Below, one piece after another: positions 2,088 through 10,851 of a DNA stretch of 64,000 nt (the stretch's first letter is position 1; each line of letters opens with the position of its first letter). The position numbers and the translations under genes were made by a program. Below the pieces are notes generated by a model, which made no database searches, had not been told where the DNA came from, and saw only the letters and a program-made list of their open reading frames with translations. Source of the DNA: Flavobacterium sp. CBA20B-1 (GTDB lineage: Bacteria > Bacteroidota > Bacteroidia > Flavobacteriales > Flavobacteriaceae); assembly GCF_028473145.1 (NCBI RefSeq), contig NZ_CP092370.1, positions 1,302,001-1,366,000 of the forward strand, read 5' to 3'.

Positions 2088-4937
2088 ATGAAGACAAATG
2101 CTTTTGCTTTGAGACACATTGGCCCCAGAGCAACCGACTTACAACACATGTTTAGCACGGTGGGTGTGAAAGATATGGATCAATTGTTATACGAAACATT
2201 TCCAGACAAAATTCGCTTAGAAAAAGACCTGGTTTTAGATCCTGCCATGACCGAATATGATTATTTGGCACACGCAACCGCTTTAGGAGCTGAAAATAAA
2301 GTATTCAAATCGATGATTGGTTTGGGTTATAACGAATCAATTGTTCCGGCGGTAATTCAACGAAATATATTCGAAAACCCAGGCTGGTACACTGCTTACA
2401 CTCCTTATCAGGCAGAAATTGCACAAGGACGTTTAGAGGCTTTATTGAACTTTCAAACCACCGTAATTGAGTTAACGGGAATGGAAATTGCCAATGCTTC
2501 TTTATTAGACGAATCTACTGCGGTTGCCGAAGCTATGGCATTGTTGTTTGATGTTCGTACAAGAGATCAAAAGAAAAACAACGCAAACAAATTATTTGTT
2601 TCAGAAGAAATTTTACCTCAAACGTTATCGGTTTTGCAAACACGTTCTACCCCAATTGGTATTGAAGTTGTTGTTGGAAACCACGAAACATTTGAGTTTA
2701 CAGAAGATTTCTTCGCTGCAATTTTACAATATCCTGGTAAATACGGTCAGGTTCATGATTATGAAGAGTTCATCAACCAAGCACATTCAAAAGATATTAA
2801 AGTAGCGGTTGCTGCTGATATTTTATCATTAGCGCGTTTAAAATCTCCGGGCGAAATGGGTGCCGATGCAGTTGTTGGTACCACACAGCGTTTTGGTATT
2901 CCGTTAGGTTTTGGTGGACCACACGCTGGTTTCTTTGCTACTAAAGAAGAATATAAACGTTCTATGCCGGGTAGAATCATTGGTGTTTCTCAAGATACCA
3001 ACGGAAACCGTGCATTGCGTATGGCATTACAAACACGTGAGCAGCACATTAAACGCGAAAAAGCAACATCAAACATTTGTACTGCACAGGTTTTATTGGC
3101 AGTTATGGCGGGTATGTACGCGGTTTATCACGGACCAAAAGGTTTACGCCGCATTGCAAACGAAGCACACGCAAAAGCAGTTACTATTGAAACCGAATTA
3201 ACTAAGTTAGGTTTTGAGCAATTAAACGATGCGTATTTTGATACTATTCTGGTAAAAGCCGATGCTGCTAAAGTAAAAGCTGTTGCCGAAGCTAAAGAAT
3301 TCAATTTCTATTATGCTGATGCTAATACGGTTTCAATTTCTGTAAACGAAACGATTTCAATCAATGATATCAATACGGTAATTGGTATTTTTGCCGAAGT
3401 AGCCGGAAAATCATTTGATGCAGTTACCGAACTTTCTCAAGAAGCTTTGGTTCCTGTGAAATTAGAAAGAACATCAACCTTTTTAGAGCATGATGTTTTC
3501 AACACGTATCATTCAGAATCTCAATTGATGCGTTATATTAAAAAGTTAGAACGTAAAGACTTGGCATTAAACCATTCTATGATTTCTTTGGGTTCTTGTA
3601 CCATGAAGTTGAATGCAGCAGCAGAAATGTTGCCTTTAAGTAATCCTAGCTGGAACAATATCCACCCATTTGCTCCGGCAGATCAAACCAAAGGTTATTT
3701 AACCATGTTGCACAAATTAGAGCAGCAGTTAAACGTAATTACCGGTTTTGCTGGTACTACGTTACAACCAAACTCTGGTGCACAAGGCGAATACGCTGGT
3801 TTAATGGTTATTCGCGCGTATCATGAATCTCGTGGCGAAGGTCACAGAAACATCGCATTAATTCCTGCATCGGCTCACGGAACAAACCCTGCATCGGCTG
3901 CAATGGCTGGTATGAAAGTGGTTGTTACCAAAACCACCGCAGAAGGAAATATTGATGTGGAAGATTTAAGAGCAAAAGCAGAATTGCACAAAGACAATTT
4001 ATCTTGTGTAATGATTACCTACCCTTCTACTCACGGTGTTTATGAATCATCGATTATAGAAATTACAAGTTTGATCCACGAAAACGGCGGGCAAGTTTAT
4101 ATGGATGGTGCCAACATGAACGCACAAGTAGGTTTGACAAATCCTGCACGTATTGGTGCCGATGTTTGTCACTTAAACTTACACAAAACCTTTGCAATTC
4201 CTCACGGAGGTGGTGGTCCGGGTGTTGGTCCAATCTGTGTGGCGAAACATTTAGTACCGTTTTTACCAACCAACCCGGTTATTAAAGTAGGTGGTGATAA
4301 TGCTATTACGGCAATTTCGGCGGCTCCGTTTGGTTCGGCTTTAGTTTGTTTAATTTCTTATGGATACATTTGTATGTTGGGTGCTGATGGGCTGAAAGAA
4401 TCTACCATGACAGCTATCTTAAACGCGAACTATATGAAAGCACGTTTAAGCGAAGGTTACGAAGTATTGTATTCTGGAGAACGCGGACGTGCAGCGCACG
4501 AAATGATTATTGATTGCCGCATGTTTAAAGCAAAAGGTATTGAAGTAACCGATATTGCTAAACGTTTAATGGATTACGGTTTTCACGCACCAACGGTTTC
4601 GTTCCCTGTGGCTGGAACGTTGATGATCGAACCAACAGAATCTGAAGATTTAGCAGAGTTAGATCGTTTTTGTGATGCAATGCTATCAATCCGTAAAGAA
4701 ATTGAAGCAGTAACCGCTGAAGACACCAACAACGTATTGAAAAATGCACCGCATACTTTAGCTATGTTAACTGCCGAAACGTGGGAATTCCCTTATTCTC
4801 GTGAAAAAGCAGCTTATCCGTTGGAATATGTAGCAGAAAACAAATTCTGGCCAAGTGTTCGTAGAGTGGATGATGCTTACGGCGACAGAAACCTTGTTTG
4901 CTCGTGTGCACCTATTGAAGCTTATATGGAAGCGTAA
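2088..4937 (+). CDS. gcvP: Glycine dehydrogenase (aminomethyl-transferring), P-protein
   Basis: 949 residues, the usual length of the single-chain P-protein. This PLP enzyme decarboxylates glycine and passes the aminomethyl group to the lipoyl arm of GcvH in the glycine cleavage system. The N-terminal half carries RHIGP near the start and the GFGGPHAGF segment; the C-terminal half carries the PLP-binding site NLHKTFAIPHGGGGPG, with the Schiff-base lysine at about residue 700. SLGSCTMKLN near residue 505 is also characteristic. The ATG at 2088 gives MKTNAFALRHIGP, which fits family N-termini. No gcvT or gcvH is in the window. A hairpin terminator follows within 25 bases, so it is likely monocistronic. 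Confidence 0.97.
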   Translation: MKTNAFALRHIGPRATDLQHMFSTVGVKDMDQLLYETFPDKIRLEKDLVLDPAMTEYDYLAHATALGAENKVFKSMIGLGYNESIVPAVIQRNIFENPGWYTAYTPYQAEIAQGRLEALLNFQTTVIELTGMEIANASLLDESTAVAEAMALLFDVRTRDQKKNNANKLFVSEEILPQTLSVLQTRSTPIGIEVVVGNHETFEFTEDFFAAILQYPGKYGQVHDYEEFINQAHSKDIKVAVAADILSLARLKSPGEMGADAVVGTTQRFGIPLGFGGPHAGFFATKEEYKRSMPGRIIGVSQDTNGNRALRMALQTREQHIKREKATSNICTAQVLLAVMAGMYAVYHGPKGLRRIANEAHAKAVTIETELTKLGFEQLNDAYFDTILVKADAAKVKAVAEAKEFNFYYADANTVSISVNETISINDINTVIGIFAEVAGKSFDAVTELSQEALVPVKLERTSTFLEHDVFNTYHSESQLMRYIKKLERKDLALNHSMISLGSCTMKLNAAAEMLPLSNPSWNNIHPFAPADQTKGYLTMLHKLEQQLNVITGFAGTTLQPNSGAQGEYAGLMVIRAYHESRGEGHRNIALIPASAHGTNPASAAMAGMKVVVTKTTAEGNIDVEDLRAKAELHKDNLSCVMITYPSTHGVYESSIIEITSLIHENGGQVYMDGANMNAQVGLTNPARIGADVCHLNLHKTFAIPHGGGGPGVGPICVAKHLVPFLPTNPVIKVGGDNAITAISAAPFGSALVCLISYGYICMLGADGLKESTMTAILNANYMKARLSEGYEVLYSGERGRAAHEMIIDCRMFKAKGIEVTDIAKRLMDYGFHAPTVSFPVAGTLMIEPTESEDLAELDRFCDAMLSIRKEIEAVTAEDTNNVLKNAPHTLAMLTAETWEFPYSREKAAYPLEYVAENKFWPSVRRVDDAYGDRNLVCSCAPIEAYMEA

Positions 4938-5022: not shown

Positions 5023-5192
5023 GTGGCTTCGAGAGCCTCAGCCACCATTCGAGAGCCTCAGCCACCATTCGAGAGCCTCAGCCACCATTCGAGAGCCTCA
5101 GCCACCATTCGAGAGCCTCAGCCACCATTCGAGAGCCTCAGCCACCATTCGAGAGCCTCAGCCACCACACGTACCCTGAGGCTCTCGAAGGG
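5023..5192. repeat. Tandem array of 20-bp units, bordered by hairpin repeats, left of the GIY-YIG gene
   Basis: The first element (5023-5045) is a 23-bp palindrome-like unit: arm GTGGCT, core TCGAGAGCCTC, arm AGCCAC. From 5031 a 20-bp unit containing the core plus the right arm repeats seven times without visible change (starts at 5031, 5051, 5071, 5091, 5111, 5131, 5151). The array ends with an inverted variant at 5174-5192 whose arms are CCCT and AGGG around the same core. A partial copy (TGGCTTCGAG) lies near 5006. The same core recurs right of the neighbouring gene. Confidence 0.9.
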
Positions 5193-5224
5193 AAAAGGAT
5201 TGAAAACCAATACAATCGATATAT

Positions 5225-5521
5225 CTACTGACTTTTTAAATCACGGTAGGCAATTGCTAATTCTGGCAGTAAAGTATGGTCTCCGTTTATTAACGCTTCT
5301 TTCTTTTTTCTATTCCATCCTTGTACTTGTTTTTCTCTGTAAAATGCGTCTTCTACTCTTTGATATTCTTCGTAATAAACTAATGTTACTGGTAAATATT
5401 TTTTGGTATGATTTGCTCCCTCTCCATTTTGGTGCTGTTTTAACCTTAATTCTAAGTTGTTGGTACTACCTGTGTAGTAACTTCCGTTTGAACAAAGTAA
5501 TATGTACATGTACCCTTTCAT
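5225..5521 (-). CDS. GIY-YIG family endonuclease (YhbQ/UPF0213-like), embedded in repeats
   Basis: 98 residues forming essentially one GIY-YIG nuclease domain. The GIY and YIG strands read MYILLCSNG and YYTGST at residues 5-20; the catalytic arginine is in LELRLKQH (about 27) and the catalytic glutamate in AFYREKQVQGW (about 63), followed by a basic RKKKEALI. All core residues are present, so it should be an active metal-dependent nuclease. The single-domain form usually has no known partner. Its surroundings are unusual: arrays and inverted copies of a hairpin repeat with core TCGAGAGCCTC lie within about 35 bases on either side (5023-5192 and 5552-5853). This suggests, but does not prove, that the enzyme acts on these repeats. 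Confidence 0.85.
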   Translation of the reverse strand: MKGYMYILLCSNGSYYTGSTNNLELRLKQHQNGEGANHTKKYLPVTLVYYEEYQRVEDAFYREKQVQGWNRKKKEALINGDHTLLPELAIAYRDLKSQ

Positions 5522-5551
5522 GATACTTTTTGCTTATTTAAAAAATTACAG

Positions 5552-5574
5552 GTGGCTGAGGTTCTCGAAGCCAC
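5552..5574. repeat. Hairpin repeat, inverted relative to the left array
   Basis: Arm GTGGCT, core GAGGTTCTCGA, arm AGCCAC. This is the reverse complement orientation of the 5023 element with one core change. It lies 31 bases upstream of the GIY-YIG start, so the gene sits between inverted copies. Confidence 0.85.
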
Positions 5575-5601
5575 GTTTCTTTCATTCTAGTGCTGATTTA
5601 T

Positions 5602-5743
5602 GTTCCCTTCGAGTGACAATATTCTGTTCCCTTCGAGTACTTATAATTGTTCCCTTCGAGTGACAATATTCTGTTCCATTCGAATACTCTATTCTGTTCC
5701 TTTCGAATACTCTATTCTGTTCCCTTCGAGTGCCTCAGGGAAC
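5602..5743. repeat. Tandem array of 23/24-bp units ending in a GTTCCC-armed palindrome
   Basis: Units beginning GTTCCCTTCGAGT (or GTTCCATTCGAAT, GTTCCTTTCGAAT) start at 5602, 5626, 5649, 5673, 5696 and 5719. Units 1 and 3 are identical. The last (5719-5743) is a complete palindrome: arm GTTCCCT, core TCGAGTGCCTC, arm AGGGAAC. The earlier units retain only the left arm and half of the core. Confidence 0.85.
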
Positions 5744-5754
5744 TACTATTGCTG

Positions 5755-5777
5755 GTGGCTGAGGCTCTCGAAGCCAC
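5755..5777. repeat. Hairpin repeat, GTGGCT-armed copy
   Basis: Arm GTGGCT, core GAGGCTCTCGA, arm AGCCAC. Same orientation as the 5552 copy and opposite to the 5023 copy. Confidence 0.85.
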
Positions 5778-5828
5778 ACCTCTTTCCTTCGATATTCTAA
5801 TTACTTTCCCTTCGGATGTCCATCATCT

Positions 5829-5853
5829 GTTCCCTTCGAGTGCCTCAGGGAAC
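5829..5853. repeat. Hairpin repeat, GTTCCC-armed copy
   Basis: Arm GTTCCCT, core TCGAGTGCCTC, arm AGGGAAC, identical to the copy at 5719-5743. It lies 32 bases beyond the lpxD stop codon. Confidence 0.85.
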
Positions 5854-5885: not shown

Positions 5886-6884
5886 TTACTTCTTACTCTC
5901 GTTTAACAAACGTTTCATAATAGCCCATTGTTTTAAGGTATCACGAGCTTCTAACGCCGGATAGCCCAACATGGTTTTGCCGGCTGCTACATCGCCTGTT
6001 ACACCAGAACCTGCACCAATAACAGCACGGTCGCCAATGGTGGTGTGGTCTTTAATAGAGGCGCTGCCGCCAATAATTACGCCGTTGCCTAGTTTAACCG
6101 ATCCTGCCAAACCGCTGTTACCCGCCATGATACAGAACATACCCAATTCGCTGTTATGTCCTATTTGCACCAAATTGTCTATTTTACAACCATCACCAAT
6201 AATGGTAGAACTGAATTTACCGCGATCTACACAGGCATTGGCTCCAATTTCTACCTGATTGCCAATGACAACATCGCCGATCTGGGGGATTTTTACCAAA
6301 CCACGTTCGGCACACGGGCGAAATCCAAAACCATCGGCACCAATGGTCGCATTTGGATGTATGATACACTGATGACCAATTTTACTGCGTTCACGAATAG
6401 CCACTCCCGACCAAATGGTGGTTTGTTTGCCAATAATACAATCGTCTAAAATGGTTACGTTTGGGTACAGAATAGTGCCATCGCCAATTTCGGTACGCGG
6501 ACCAACATAGCAACCTGCTCCTATTTTTACTCCGTTACCAATTTTTGCAGAATCGTCGATTACCGCGGTAGGATGAATATCAACAGTAAACTCGGGCATA
6601 GGCGAAGCAAATAATTCCAAAACCTGACTCATAGCCAAATCGGCATCGGGTACTTGAATGAACGCACGGTTTTCACCCGGTTCAATAGAAATATCTTTAT
6701 TTACCACAGCCACACTTGCAGCAGATTGTTCCCATAATTTTTCGTATTTTTTGTTGCCAATAAAAGAAATATGAGATTGTTTGGCACGGCTAAGTTCTTC
6801 GGTATAGGTGATATTTTCTGTGGTGGATCCAATTATGGTTCCCTTTAAAATATCGTTAATTTCAAAAATAGAATACGATTTCAT
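5886..6884 (-). CDS. lpxD: LpxD, UDP-3-O-acylglucosamine N-acyltransferase
   Basis: 332 residues, normal for LpxD. It adds the second 3-hydroxyacyl chain, to N2 of UDP-3-O-acylglucosamine, in lipid A synthesis. The N-terminal uridine-binding domain (1-100) is followed by a left-handed beta helix of hexapeptide repeats (110-300) with the catalytic-histidine segment NLVQIGHNSELG near 235-246, then a short helical tail (KQWAIMKRLL) as in other LpxD proteins. It stands alone, without lpxA, lpxC or fabZ, so it may be a second, standalone copy like those seen in some Bacteroidota. The hairpin-repeat cluster lies immediately downstream. Confidence 0.9.
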   Translation of the reverse strand: MKSYSIFEINDILKGTIIGSTTENITYTEELSRAKQSHISFIGNKKYEKLWEQSAASVAVVNKDISIEPGENRAFIQVPDADLAMSQVLELFASPMPEFTVDIHPTAVIDDSAKIGNGVKIGAGCYVGPRTEIGDGTILYPNVTILDDCIIGKQTTIWSGVAIRERSKIGHQCIIHPNATIGADGFGFRPCAERGLVKIPQIGDVVIGNQVEIGANACVDRGKFSSTIIGDGCKIDNLVQIGHNSELGMFCIMAGNSGLAGSVKLGNGVIIGGSASIKDHTTIGDRAVIGAGSGVTGDVAAGKTMLGYPALEARDTLKQWAIMKRLLNESKK

Positions 6885-9066: not shown

Positions 9067-10851
9067 GAGGCTGTCCAAAAAGGATAGCCTCTTTGTTATA
9101 CTACTAACTTTTCAACATCATCACTAAAGTTAATTTCTTGCTTTTTTTGAAATAAAGACCGCTGATAGCATCTAAATTCGACAAAAATGACAAGTTTAGA
9201 ACCAAAAATACGGCGTTTGAATACCGTTTTTCTTCCCGCAACTGCTACAGCCACCATTTTTCTAAAATTATGTCCAAGAGCCATCAGTAGAAATTCTAAT
9301 TCTACTTTCTCTAAGCCTTTGAATGTAAATCTATTAAAATCATTATTGTGCTTGAGTTGCCCAAAAACAGCCTCTACTTCTATAGGGCGTTTACTGCGAT
9401 GTTCCAGCCCTTTCTCGCTCGTTAATAAATTTCGAGCCTTTTCTTTAAGCTCATTCAACCGGTGATTGACTTCTATTCTGCGATTACCTTTTGCATTGAA
9501 GCATTGCTCTCGAAGCGGACAATTATTACAGTTTTTTGCCTGATAATAAGACACTTGCGATTCGTGTCCGTTGCTCGAAATTCGTTTTCCTTTGCCAACA
9601 TTTTCCATTCGTTGACCCATCGGACAAACGTAAAAATCTTGTTCTTTGTTGTAGAATAAATTCTGAACCAAAAACGGATTATTTTTCATCGTCCGTTTCG
9701 CTTCTTTGTGAAAATAATTGTACTTCACGTAGGCTTTAATGCTTTTATTTTCAAGCATTTCGTAATTTTCTTCGCTTCCATAACCTGCATCGGCAACCAC
9801 ATCTTTGCTTTGTTTTCCATAGAGATTTTCAAAACCATCAAGATGCGATTCCAAAGTCGTGGTATCCCCCGGTTTTTGATGGATGGAAACGTGGGTAATA
9901 AACTGATTTTCAGTTGAAATCTGCGTATTATAAGCCGGTTTAAGCTGTCCGTTTTTCATGTGATCTTCCTTCATCCGCATAAAAGTAGCGTCAGGGTCGG
10001 TTTTGCTGTAAGAATTCCTATCGCCTAAAGTTTCTAGGTCTTTTTCGTATTTTTCTAATTTTGGAAGATGCTCATCCTGAAGTTTTTGTAGCTCTTTTGC
10101 CTGTTTTTTAGTGGGTTCTTTCAGCTTTTTATTCAAGATCGATAGCTTCTCCCGAAGTTCTTCCGAATTGATGCTTTTAGGTAATTCTTCTTTGTTAATT
10201 TCTTGATTATCAGACTGAATAGCACTTTCGATATCTGAAAGAATCGTGTTGATTTTAACTTCTAATTTTTCCTTGTATTTTTCAATCGAACCTCTCCAAA
10301 CAAAAGTATAACGATTCGATTTGGCTTCGATTTTTGTTCCATCAATGTACTGAATATCAAGACTTACATAGCCCATTTCAACCAGCATTTTCACTACTTC
10401 GGCAAATAGTTGTTGAATATGATTTTTTAATATTTTCCCTCGAAAGTCGTTAATGGTTCGGAAATCAGGCGTAGAGTTGCCCGAAATGTACATGAAATAG
10501 ATGTTTTCGGTGAGTGCTTTAGCTATTTTCCGGCAAGAATAAACGTTTGACAAATAGCTGTAAAACAACACTTTAATCATCATTCTTGGATGATATGCAG
10601 AGGTACCACCTCCTTTGTACAACTTAATTATATTGCTAATATCCAACGAGTTAACGACCTCTTCGATTAATCGAACAGGGTGATTATTAGGGATTTTATC
10701 AAAAATATTAATCGGAAAAAGTTCAGGACTATTGCCTGTTTGATTTTTAAAAACTACCTTAGCCATTGTTGGTTTTTTGTGCAACTCTAAGATAATTATT
10801 TTGGAGAAAAAATACAACAAAAAAAAGCTGTCCGACTTTTCGGACAGCTTC
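9067..10851. mobile_element. IS1182-family insertion sequence
   Basis: About 1.79 kb, bounded by related terminal sequences: left GAGGCTGTCCAAAA, right (reverse complement) GAAGCTGTCCGAAAA. Each end also folds on itself (GGCTGTCC/GGATAGCC on the left; AGCTGTCCGA/TCGGACAGCT at 10826-10849 on the right), which may insulate the element as terminators. A single intact transposase gene lies inside. No clear target duplication is visible (flanks ...CAAAAA and TGATTT...). It separates hmp from clc. Confidence 0.85.
9096..10766 (-). CDS. IS1182-family DDE transposase
   Basis: 556 residues from the ATG at 10766 (MAKVVFKNQTG); a further in-frame ATG at 10820 would overlap the inverted-repeat end and is less likely. 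The N-terminal region YKGGGTSAYHPRMMIKVLFY is the typical helical DNA-binding part (DUF772-like). The catalytic triad is visible as YIDGTKIEA, VVADAGYGSEENYEML and a late glutamate in RPIEVEAVFGQLKHN. A coiled-coil insert (about 185-265) lies between the first and second aspartates, as usual for the family. A zinc-like cysteine cluster (NCNNCPLREQC) is also present. It appears intact and potentially active. Confidence 0.93.
   Translation of the reverse strand: MAKVVFKNQTGNSPELFPINIFDKIPNNHPVRLIEEVVNSLDISNIIKLYKGGGTSAYHPRMMIKVLFYSYLSNVYSCRKIAKALTENIYFMYISGNSTPDFRTINDFRGKILKNHIQQLFAEVVKMLVEMGYVSLDIQYIDGTKIEAKSNRYTFVWRGSIEKYKEKLEVKINTILSDIESAIQSDNQEINKEELPKSINSEELREKLSILNKKLKEPTKKQAKELQKLQDEHLPKLEKYEKDLETLGDRNSYSKTDPDATFMRMKEDHMKNGQLKPAYNTQISTENQFITHVSIHQKPGDTTTLESHLDGFENLYGKQSKDVVADAGYGSEENYEMLENKSIKAYVKYNYFHKEAKRTMKNNPFLVQNLFYNKEQDFYVCPMGQRMENVGKGKRISSNGHESQVSYYQAKNCNNCPLREQCFNAKGNRRIEVNHRLNELKEKARNLLTSEKGLEHRSKRPIEVEAVFGQLKHNNDFNRFTFKGLEKVELEFLLMALGHNFRKMVAVAVAGRKTVFKRRIFGSKLVIFVEFRCYQRSLFQKKQEINFSDDVEKLVV

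Follow-up and report, generated by a model that had tools for sequence, protein, structure and literature searches.

Small GIY-YIG nuclease genes recurrently flanked by REP-type palindromes: a candidate enzyme for a class of dispersed repeats

A gene for a small GIY-YIG nuclease in Flavobacterium sp. CBA20B-1 lies within a cluster of short palindromes that share a core and differ in their arms, and comparable palindromes adjoin related genes in the same genus and family and in other phyla. The gene and the palindromes probably form one system, in which a small Slx1-like nuclease is paired with cognate REP-type hairpins that would spread by cut-and-repair. The results support the interpretation given in an earlier note on the same 64-kb stretch of DNA (hereafter, the window), which had suggested, by analogy with RAYT transposases and REP palindromes, that the nuclease could recognize, cut or spread the repeats.

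The nuclease gene (5225..5521, minus strand, 98 aa) matches PF01541 (E 1.7e-18), and its frame is intact, as the earlier note had read it; gcvP (2088-4937) lies on one side of the locus and an lpxD-type gene (5886-6884, minus strand, PF04613) on the other. That note had also described six copies with a shared core and differing, complementary arms, and all six were confirmed by a detector that looks for complementary arms of at least 4 bp around GAG-N4..6-CGA. They fall into three arm pairs: GTGGCT/AGCCAC in three copies (5023..5045, minus strand, and 5755..5777, plus strand, both around GAGGCTCTCGA; 5552..5574, plus strand, around GAGGTTCTCGA), CCCT/AGGG in one (5174..5192, plus strand, around GAGGCTCTCGA) and GTTCCCT/AGGGAAC in two (5719..5743 and 5829..5853, both minus strand, around GAGGCACTCGA). 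The arms are complementary in every copy, the cores are bulged and 11 nt long, and the assignment rests on detector and fold for the first two pairs and on the detector for the third. All six copies are contained within 5023-5853, and the detector marks nothing else in the window. With arms of at least 5 bp, there are five copies in 0.8 kb at the locus against six in 400 kb of control sequence, composed of 20 stretches of 20 kb from related genomes, one of which holds four of the six matches. The idea that copies lie in opposite orientation across the gene proved only partly right at this locus: both orientations occur on each side, and the two nearest copies point in the same direction. Incomplete repeats are present as well. 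Six 20-bp tandem units (5048..5167), seen in the sequence and as repeat families, consist of the core with a single arm; they are not palindromes. In addition, half copies (GTTCCCTTCGAGT or a variant of it), some five in number at about 5602..5718, read from the sequence and represented in repeat families D2 and D4, retain the opposite half. A reading of the palindromes as terminators was rejected because they have no T-run and occur on both sides of the gene. Elsewhere in the window, a DDE transposase ORF (PF13751, PF05598, PF01609) is located at 9096-10820.

The 3.04-Mb genome contains 16 copies of the core with at most one mismatch, 12 of them at the nuclease gene, three in a group roughly 1 Mb from it and a single one at another place; the nuclease gene is the sole close copy in the genome, two others matching at E about 2e-4. 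No clean empty site was found for the window locus. In the nearest relative seen (G022, L262; LpxD 97% identical), two ORFs of 178 and 191 aa with no Pfam match replace the nuclease and the repeats between gcvP and lpxD, and, judged by this comparison, the gcvP-lpxD intergenic gap is a variable site. At G000:C1:293982-294095 (L047:1483-1595), a pair of oppositely oriented core palindromes, with a one-mismatch core between them, lies inside an ORF that has a type I restriction specificity domain (PF01420), so that these repeats are read as protein.

The lowest-energy fold common to all six window copies combines a loop of 3 nt with an upper stem of 3 bp and a two-base GA bulge, and the variable arms form its lower stem. 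Compared with shuffled sequences, a clearly better fold is seen only for the GTGGCT copies (z -2.4 to -3.2); the values are -0.33 for the GTTCCCT copies, which were folded minus their outermost bases, and -1.31 for the CCCT copy. Covariation of the arms was assessed in 66 distinct contexts picked by the core alone, not by complementarity, which are not independent, many being from one genome. At arm positions 1, 2 and 4, the two sides pair in 55, 64 and 56 of these contexts, against shuffle maxima of 36, 54 and 43; position 3 (54 of 66) stays below its shuffle maximum of 56, and positions 5-8 have no excess. The fixed core with covarying arms that the earlier note proposed to look for in related genomes is thus supported at three arm positions. 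A general hairpin-energy scan was too unspecific to count palindromes. At three related loci (L121, L122 and L126), the core itself was seen by eye to contain a second, variable hairpin.

Among the nearest homologues, palindromes of the same make adjoin the gene, and the commonest core depends on which homologue is considered: it is GAGGCTCTCGA or a variant at 81% and 77% protein identity, GAGC[CT]TG[TC]CGA at 71% and GAGCGGAG[TC]CGA at 70%. In the close clade, which comprises the window gene and 14 homologues (59-81%), the strict detector marks 10 of the 15 loci, and palindromes are present at the other five (L121, L122, L126, L128 and L129) when read by eye, not blind. Across the family, a palindrome lies within 500 bp of the gene at 25 of 56 usable GIY-YIG loci, compared to 2 of 29 lpxD loci and none of 20 Y1 transposase loci, as counted with a GAG-N-CGA detector devised after the first loci had been read. 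The 56 loci were drawn from 59; two of those left out (L125 and L138, at contig ends) had detector matches, so that their omission lowers the linkage count, and in the third (L039) the frame was unclear. TGTC is carried by some GAG..CGA copies elsewhere in the family, but not by the window copies. A different GIY-YIG subfamily of the genus is flanked, in G012, G013 and G044 (L022, L026 and L030), by long palindromes that are AT-rich, vary in their arms and keep the ends GAGTG / TGTAT fixed. Small GIY-YIG frames of another subfamily occur in runs, about 350 bp apart, in three genomes (G022:C1:181327-182921, G000:C1:2791962-2792507 and G007:C24:34520-36124, with five, two and four listed matches, respectively).

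Repeat abundance is associated with the presence of the gene, a correlation for which the earlier note had proposed a test. In 61 same-genus genomes, a homologue of at least 70% identity is found in 4 of the 8 genomes with at least five core copies, the window genome among them, versus 1 of the 53 others (Fisher p 6e-4), the five-copy cut-off having been chosen after the counts were seen; the single carrier among the 53 (G056) uses another core. In the genus Neisseria, counts of dRS3-type repeats are higher in genomes with the gene (n=18) than in those without it (n=28; one-sided Mann-Whitney p 0.0076). Equal abundance without the gene, which would have spoken against the link, is therefore not the overall pattern, but gene-less genomes rich in repeats do occur: 4 of the 8 repeat-rich same-genus genomes have no homologue at that identity, and 8 of the 28 gene-less Neisseria-genus genomes have ten or more copies. 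Accordingly, the gene is not needed for the repeats to persist. The gene itself is patchy in distribution, sometimes in several copies, some of them broken. A search for GIY-YIG remnants at 15 repeat regions (E 1e-3) returned only the known gene in L080 and none in the 14 distal regions.

A more distant GIY-YIG gene in the same genus (L041) has, when read by eye, CGTC-tagged palindromes on both sides, which the strict detector misses. A CGTC detector was devised after this locus and PMC3733652 had been seen. A plasmid collection yielded 33 records of L041 relatives, and CGTC/TGTC palindromes lie near the gene at 10 of the 12 loci examined (Shinella, Neisseria, Planktothrix, Azospirillum, Novosphingobium, Aeromonas, Photobacterium, Spirosoma, Rhizobium and Sphingobium); at the Sinorhizobium meliloti and Rhizobium tumorigenes loci, no tagged palindromes were found near the gene. 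On the Planktothrix agardhii plasmid (L151), the GIY-YIG gene and its palindromes are situated between an MmeI-type restriction gene and the DISARM gene drmA.

The linkage extends across phyla. For a scan based on one genome per species and an alignment of 12 proteins, with the arm threshold of the CGTC detector raised from 6 to 7, we took the best 80 of 581 relatives, ranked by protein similarity and not by repeats. A palindrome lies within 250 bp of the gene on both sides at 41 of these 80 loci, on one side at 19 and on neither at 20, so that the prediction that homologues elsewhere would sit among such elements was borne out at 60 of the 80. By comparison, among 213 control ORFs of at least 200 codons at the same loci, one has palindromes on both sides and 24 on any side, and 10,735 random windows give 0.28% and 7.0%, respectively. 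Palindrome density in this set of the best 80 of 581 is 3.71 per kb near the gene (146 in 39,379 bp) and 0.143 per kb beyond 1 kb (76 in 531,217 bp), a 26-fold excess. The nearest upstream copy is plus-oriented in 36 of 51 cases and the nearest downstream copy minus-oriented in 38 of 50; the commoner arrangement across loci is therefore inverted. The 60 positive loci, many of them metagenome bins, comprise 39 from Pseudomonadota, 8 from Bacteroidota, one from each of eight further phyla or candidate groups, one from a Deltaproteobacterium and four that are unplaced; with Planktothrix, the groups showing the linkage number eleven, nine of which are represented by one locus. The 20 loci negative under the strict detector are mostly Pseudomonadota (18), and at 19 of them other palindromes or inverted repeats were seen by eye, not blind, L181 having none. 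Three of these 19 are Bradyrhizobium loci (L200, L231 and L232), at which a long inverted repeat of about 50 bp, again read by eye, flanks the gene in place of short tagged palindromes.

The repeats at the related loci have a CGTC/TGTC tag, mostly 8-9 bp stems starting with AT, 4-5 nt loops and CCA tails, and thus the tag, the stem (8-9 bp, starting with AT) and the loop (4-5 nt) by which CGTC REPs are recognized. The window copies have an 11-nt bulged core and neither CGTC nor TGTC, and because the tag is absent, we do not file them as CGTC REPs. According to the accessible part of a 2013 survey (PMC3733652), CGTC REPs include the Neisseria dRS3 and the Rickettsia RPE-4 and RPE-6 repeats and apparently lack a dedicated transposase; within that part, the survey also states that none of the tyrosine transposase genes of CGTC-positive species had CGTC repeats at its flanks, and the listing of REPs inside genes omits hypothetical proteins shorter than 120 aa. 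The portion available of a 2025 REP survey (PMC12306157) contains no match for GIY, nuclease or transposase. A search of the open-access literature gave no report of the pairing among the matches listed; subscription journals and preprints were outside its scope, and an earlier report is possible.

The palindrome class largely follows the nuclease, with exceptions, to judge from a FastTree phylogeny of 148 GIY-YIG proteins that has few columns and many open forks. Six classes at 83 loci require 15 changes on this tree, the lowest of 300 shuffles being 34, with each locus assigned its commonest class (19 of 94 labelled loci are mixed), with 11 unusual-loop loci (nine C_other and two G_other) left out, and with host relatedness adding to the clustering. 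The two CGTC loop classes alone, at 61 named loci, require 7 changes against a shuffled minimum of 15; the four GAG-type classes alone, at 20 loci, cluster weakly (7 changes, shuffled minimum 8). The genus Neisseria offers a closer look: 46 genomes contain 23 matches, of which two (L309 and L316) are pieces of one broken gene, and palindromes occur on both sides of 17 and on one side of two. The ten matches at 73-100% identity, L309 and L316 included, have ATTCCCGC stems. Among the nine at 60-66%, five (L302-L306) have ATACTCGGG, L307 and L314 have other stems, and the fragments L308 and L311 have none; the two at 55% (L310 and L315) have ATTCCCGC stems again, so that protein identity alone does not decide the class. 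The remaining two matches, L312 and L317, are short and broken and have no palindromes.

Units with and without the gene can be compared in Rhizobium bangladeshense. One contig has two gene copies, each inside an inverted REP pair with a 343-bp interior, along with gene-less REP pairs with interiors of 70-71 bp, and gene-less pairs on other contigs have interiors of 75-78 bp. The gene-less interiors start with CCACA[AG]CC and mostly end with GCCAGCCGCATGG, as does the first gene-carrying copy; the second shares the left inner end and has a different right one. In nearly all compared copies, similar sequence continues for 15-20 bp beyond the REPs on either side. The REP, allowing at most one mismatch, occurs 20 times in the genome, 11 of them on the contig of the gene. 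The two gene copies have diverged at 34% of their synonymous sites and at 2.5% of the non-synonymous ones, which indicates that the protein is under selection. No target-site duplication was seen by eye, and no exact element end was found.

Presence and absence at one site are seen in Azospirillum. In A. lipoferum 4B, the gene separates sufB from sufC and is bordered by one REP pair to its left and another to its right; in three close species (A. ramasamyi, A. oryzae and Azospirillum sp. B510), the sufB-sufC gap has no annotated gene and no CGTC REP could be read in it, and the gap of A. brasilense is short too. Among 12 records that cover at least 80% of the region, several of them unannotated, a GIY-YIG gene is listed only in A. 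lipoferum. The boundaries of the Azospirillum unit are blurred. In both Azospirillum and Neisseria, the gene is found between two whole REP pairs.

An alignment of 37 nuclease sequences, including that of the window, has invariant Tyr6, Tyr16, Arg26, His30 and Glu63, which we take to be the catalytic residues. The window protein matches PF01541 only, with no further domain in its 98 aa. In NCBIfam, three of four proteins have matches, all of them sub-threshold, to a group I intron endonuclease model, and a sequence search at E 0.01 returned only two UPF0213 entries. For the window protein as modelled (mean pLDDT 80.6, pTM 0.73), the nearest Foldseek matches are the UPF0213 NMR structures 1zg2 and 1ywl (E 1.1e-6 and 1.7e-4, TM about 0.54-0.58), followed by Slx1 of Slx1-Slx4 (from E 6.5e-3), in entries whose titles mention branched DNA and 5' flaps; I-TevI (1ln0) is a weak match at rank 42. 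The predicted fold is that of a structure-specific nuclease of the UPF0213/Slx1 type. Prokaryotic Slx1 orthologues have been described (PMC1564403), and the section of that paper on prokaryotic Slx1-like proteins, as available, describes no role in repeat biology. Purifying selection on the nuclease gene is indicated by dN/dS of 0.03-0.19 in 11 of 16 gene pairs, those with unsaturated synonymous sites; the pairs of the window clade are saturated.

Linkage, arm covariation, class clustering and unit structure, combined with the predicted structure-specific fold, make it natural to infer that the nuclease acts on the hairpin. Under the model we favour, the nuclease would recognize a hairpin or cruciform by its fixed core, that is, by the loop, the bulge and, in the relatives, the CGTC/TGTC tag, while the arms would need only to pair, and it would nick or cut at the hairpin. 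Repair or replication of the cut site could then copy the repeats to new places, at times together with the gene that lies between two of them. Units that carry the gene would in this case be autonomous, and gene-less repeat pairs non-autonomous. GIY-YIG enzymes hydrolyse DNA. Spread of the repeats through the nuclease is less sure than its action on the hairpin, because the movement of DNA by a hydrolase depends on host repair and because homing and a protective role are live rivals.

Homing is the rival that survives best, although we regard it as unlikely. Here, an endonuclease would cut gene-less REP pairs, gene conversion would then copy its gene into them, and the repeats would be landing sites that spread by other means. 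Such a course would account for a gene inside a REP pair, or between two whole pairs as in Azospirillum and Neisseria, and for the existence of gene-less pairs, and, according to the available text of PMC1564403, GIY-YIG domains were first found in homing enzymes. However, homing leaves both the dispersal of the repeats and the clustering of their classes with the nuclease unexplained, and the 98-aa protein has only the GIY-YIG domain, in a fold nearer to UPF0213/Slx1 than to I-TevI.

A domesticated resolver of hairpins or cruciforms, guarding replication through REP-rich DNA, is a quite doubtful alternative, in which the linkage would reflect self-regulation or a local origin of the repeats and not mobility. 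It agrees with the Slx1-like fold, with purifying selection and with the concentration of REPs near the gene (12 of 16 cores in the window genome, 11 of 20 on the R. bangladeshense gene contig), but not with a gene that is patchy, multi-copy, in part broken and present or absent together with its repeats at one site, like a mobile element.

It is very unlikely, and we reject the view, that a RAYT or another IS200-like tyrosine transposase elsewhere moves the repeats, with the GIY-YIG gene as a passenger. REPs with a GTAG tag are the substrates of TnpA-REP enzymes, as stated in the accessible part of PMC8266576, and a Y1_Tnp match is present in 41 of the 61 same-genus genomes, among them that of the window; yet the genome with the most core copies of the 61 (G038, with 41) has no match to the Y1 transposase domain (PF01797), nor have G011, G012 and G039, none of the 20 Y1_Tnp loci has a palindrome within 500 bp, the 2013 survey, in the part cited above, states that no tyrosine transposase gene in CGTC-positive species is CGTC-flanked (PMC3733652), and the clustering of palindrome classes on the GIY-YIG tree speaks against RAYT-driven spread. 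Chance or composition, with terminators or common intergenic repeats beside a small gene, is scarcely credible: REPs do prefer intergenic DNA (PMC3733652, in part), and the flanks of a short gene are richer in intergenic sequence, for which the controls have no length matching, but the 26-fold density excess, the both-sided occurrence at 41 of 80 loci versus 1 of 213, the lpxD and Y1 controls and the clustering of classes with the nuclease all argue otherwise.

With the rivals weighed, cut-and-repair spread by the nuclease remains our preferred reading, and the GIY-YIG nuclease is possibly the missing partner of a repeat class hitherto without an enzyme. We lean, by a small degree, towards a broader proposal, namely that small Slx1-like GIY-YIG nucleases are the dedicated, unrecognized enzymes of CGTC-type REPs and of their Bacteroidota cousins, and thus a second, hydrolytic class of REP-spreading enzymes beside the RAYTs, found in at least ten phyla, with nuclease and hairpin core co-evolving. 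If so, two unrelated kinds of enzyme would each have adopted tagged palindromes, which would bear on the origin of well-known repeats such as Neisseria dRS3. The linkage names a candidate enzyme for these repeats, and the question can be put to the test with the purified 98-aa protein and hairpin oligonucleotides.

Among known systems, insertion sequences and MITEs have defined ends and target-site duplications; in the present units, no duplication was seen by eye, the similarity in Rhizobium runs 15-20 bp past the REPs, and the Azospirillum boundaries are blurred. Homing endonucleases of the I-TevI type share the GIY-YIG motif and, as a possibility, selfish spread, but the window protein has no further domain and its structural match to them is weak. 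UPF0213 and Slx1-like proteins (1zg2, 1ywl; Slx1-Slx4) are similar in single-domain size and, by the model, in fold. The CGTC REPs of Di Nocera (2013; PMC3733652, available in part) share their tag with the repeats that flank GIY-YIG genes in Pseudomonadota and other phyla; the difference is that a GIY-YIG gene is a recurrent neighbour here. A parallel in organization is the REPtron, composed of RAYT (TnpA-REP) and GTAG REPs: there, as in the present units, a single small gene for the enzyme stands between short palindromes of its own, the repeats are dispersed and gene-less pairs occur; the E. coli TnpA-REP, too, needs a tag and a bulge, as given in the accessible part of PMC8266576. The enzyme here, however, is a GIY-YIG protein (PF01541 only) and not an HUH Y1 tyrosine transposase (PF01797), no GTAG is in place at the window copies, and the relatives' tag is CGTC/TGTC, of which the window has neither. 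Because the nuclease is unrelated to RAYTs, the likeness lies in the working arrangement and not in descent: the arrangement works like a RAYT REPtron without being a member of that family.
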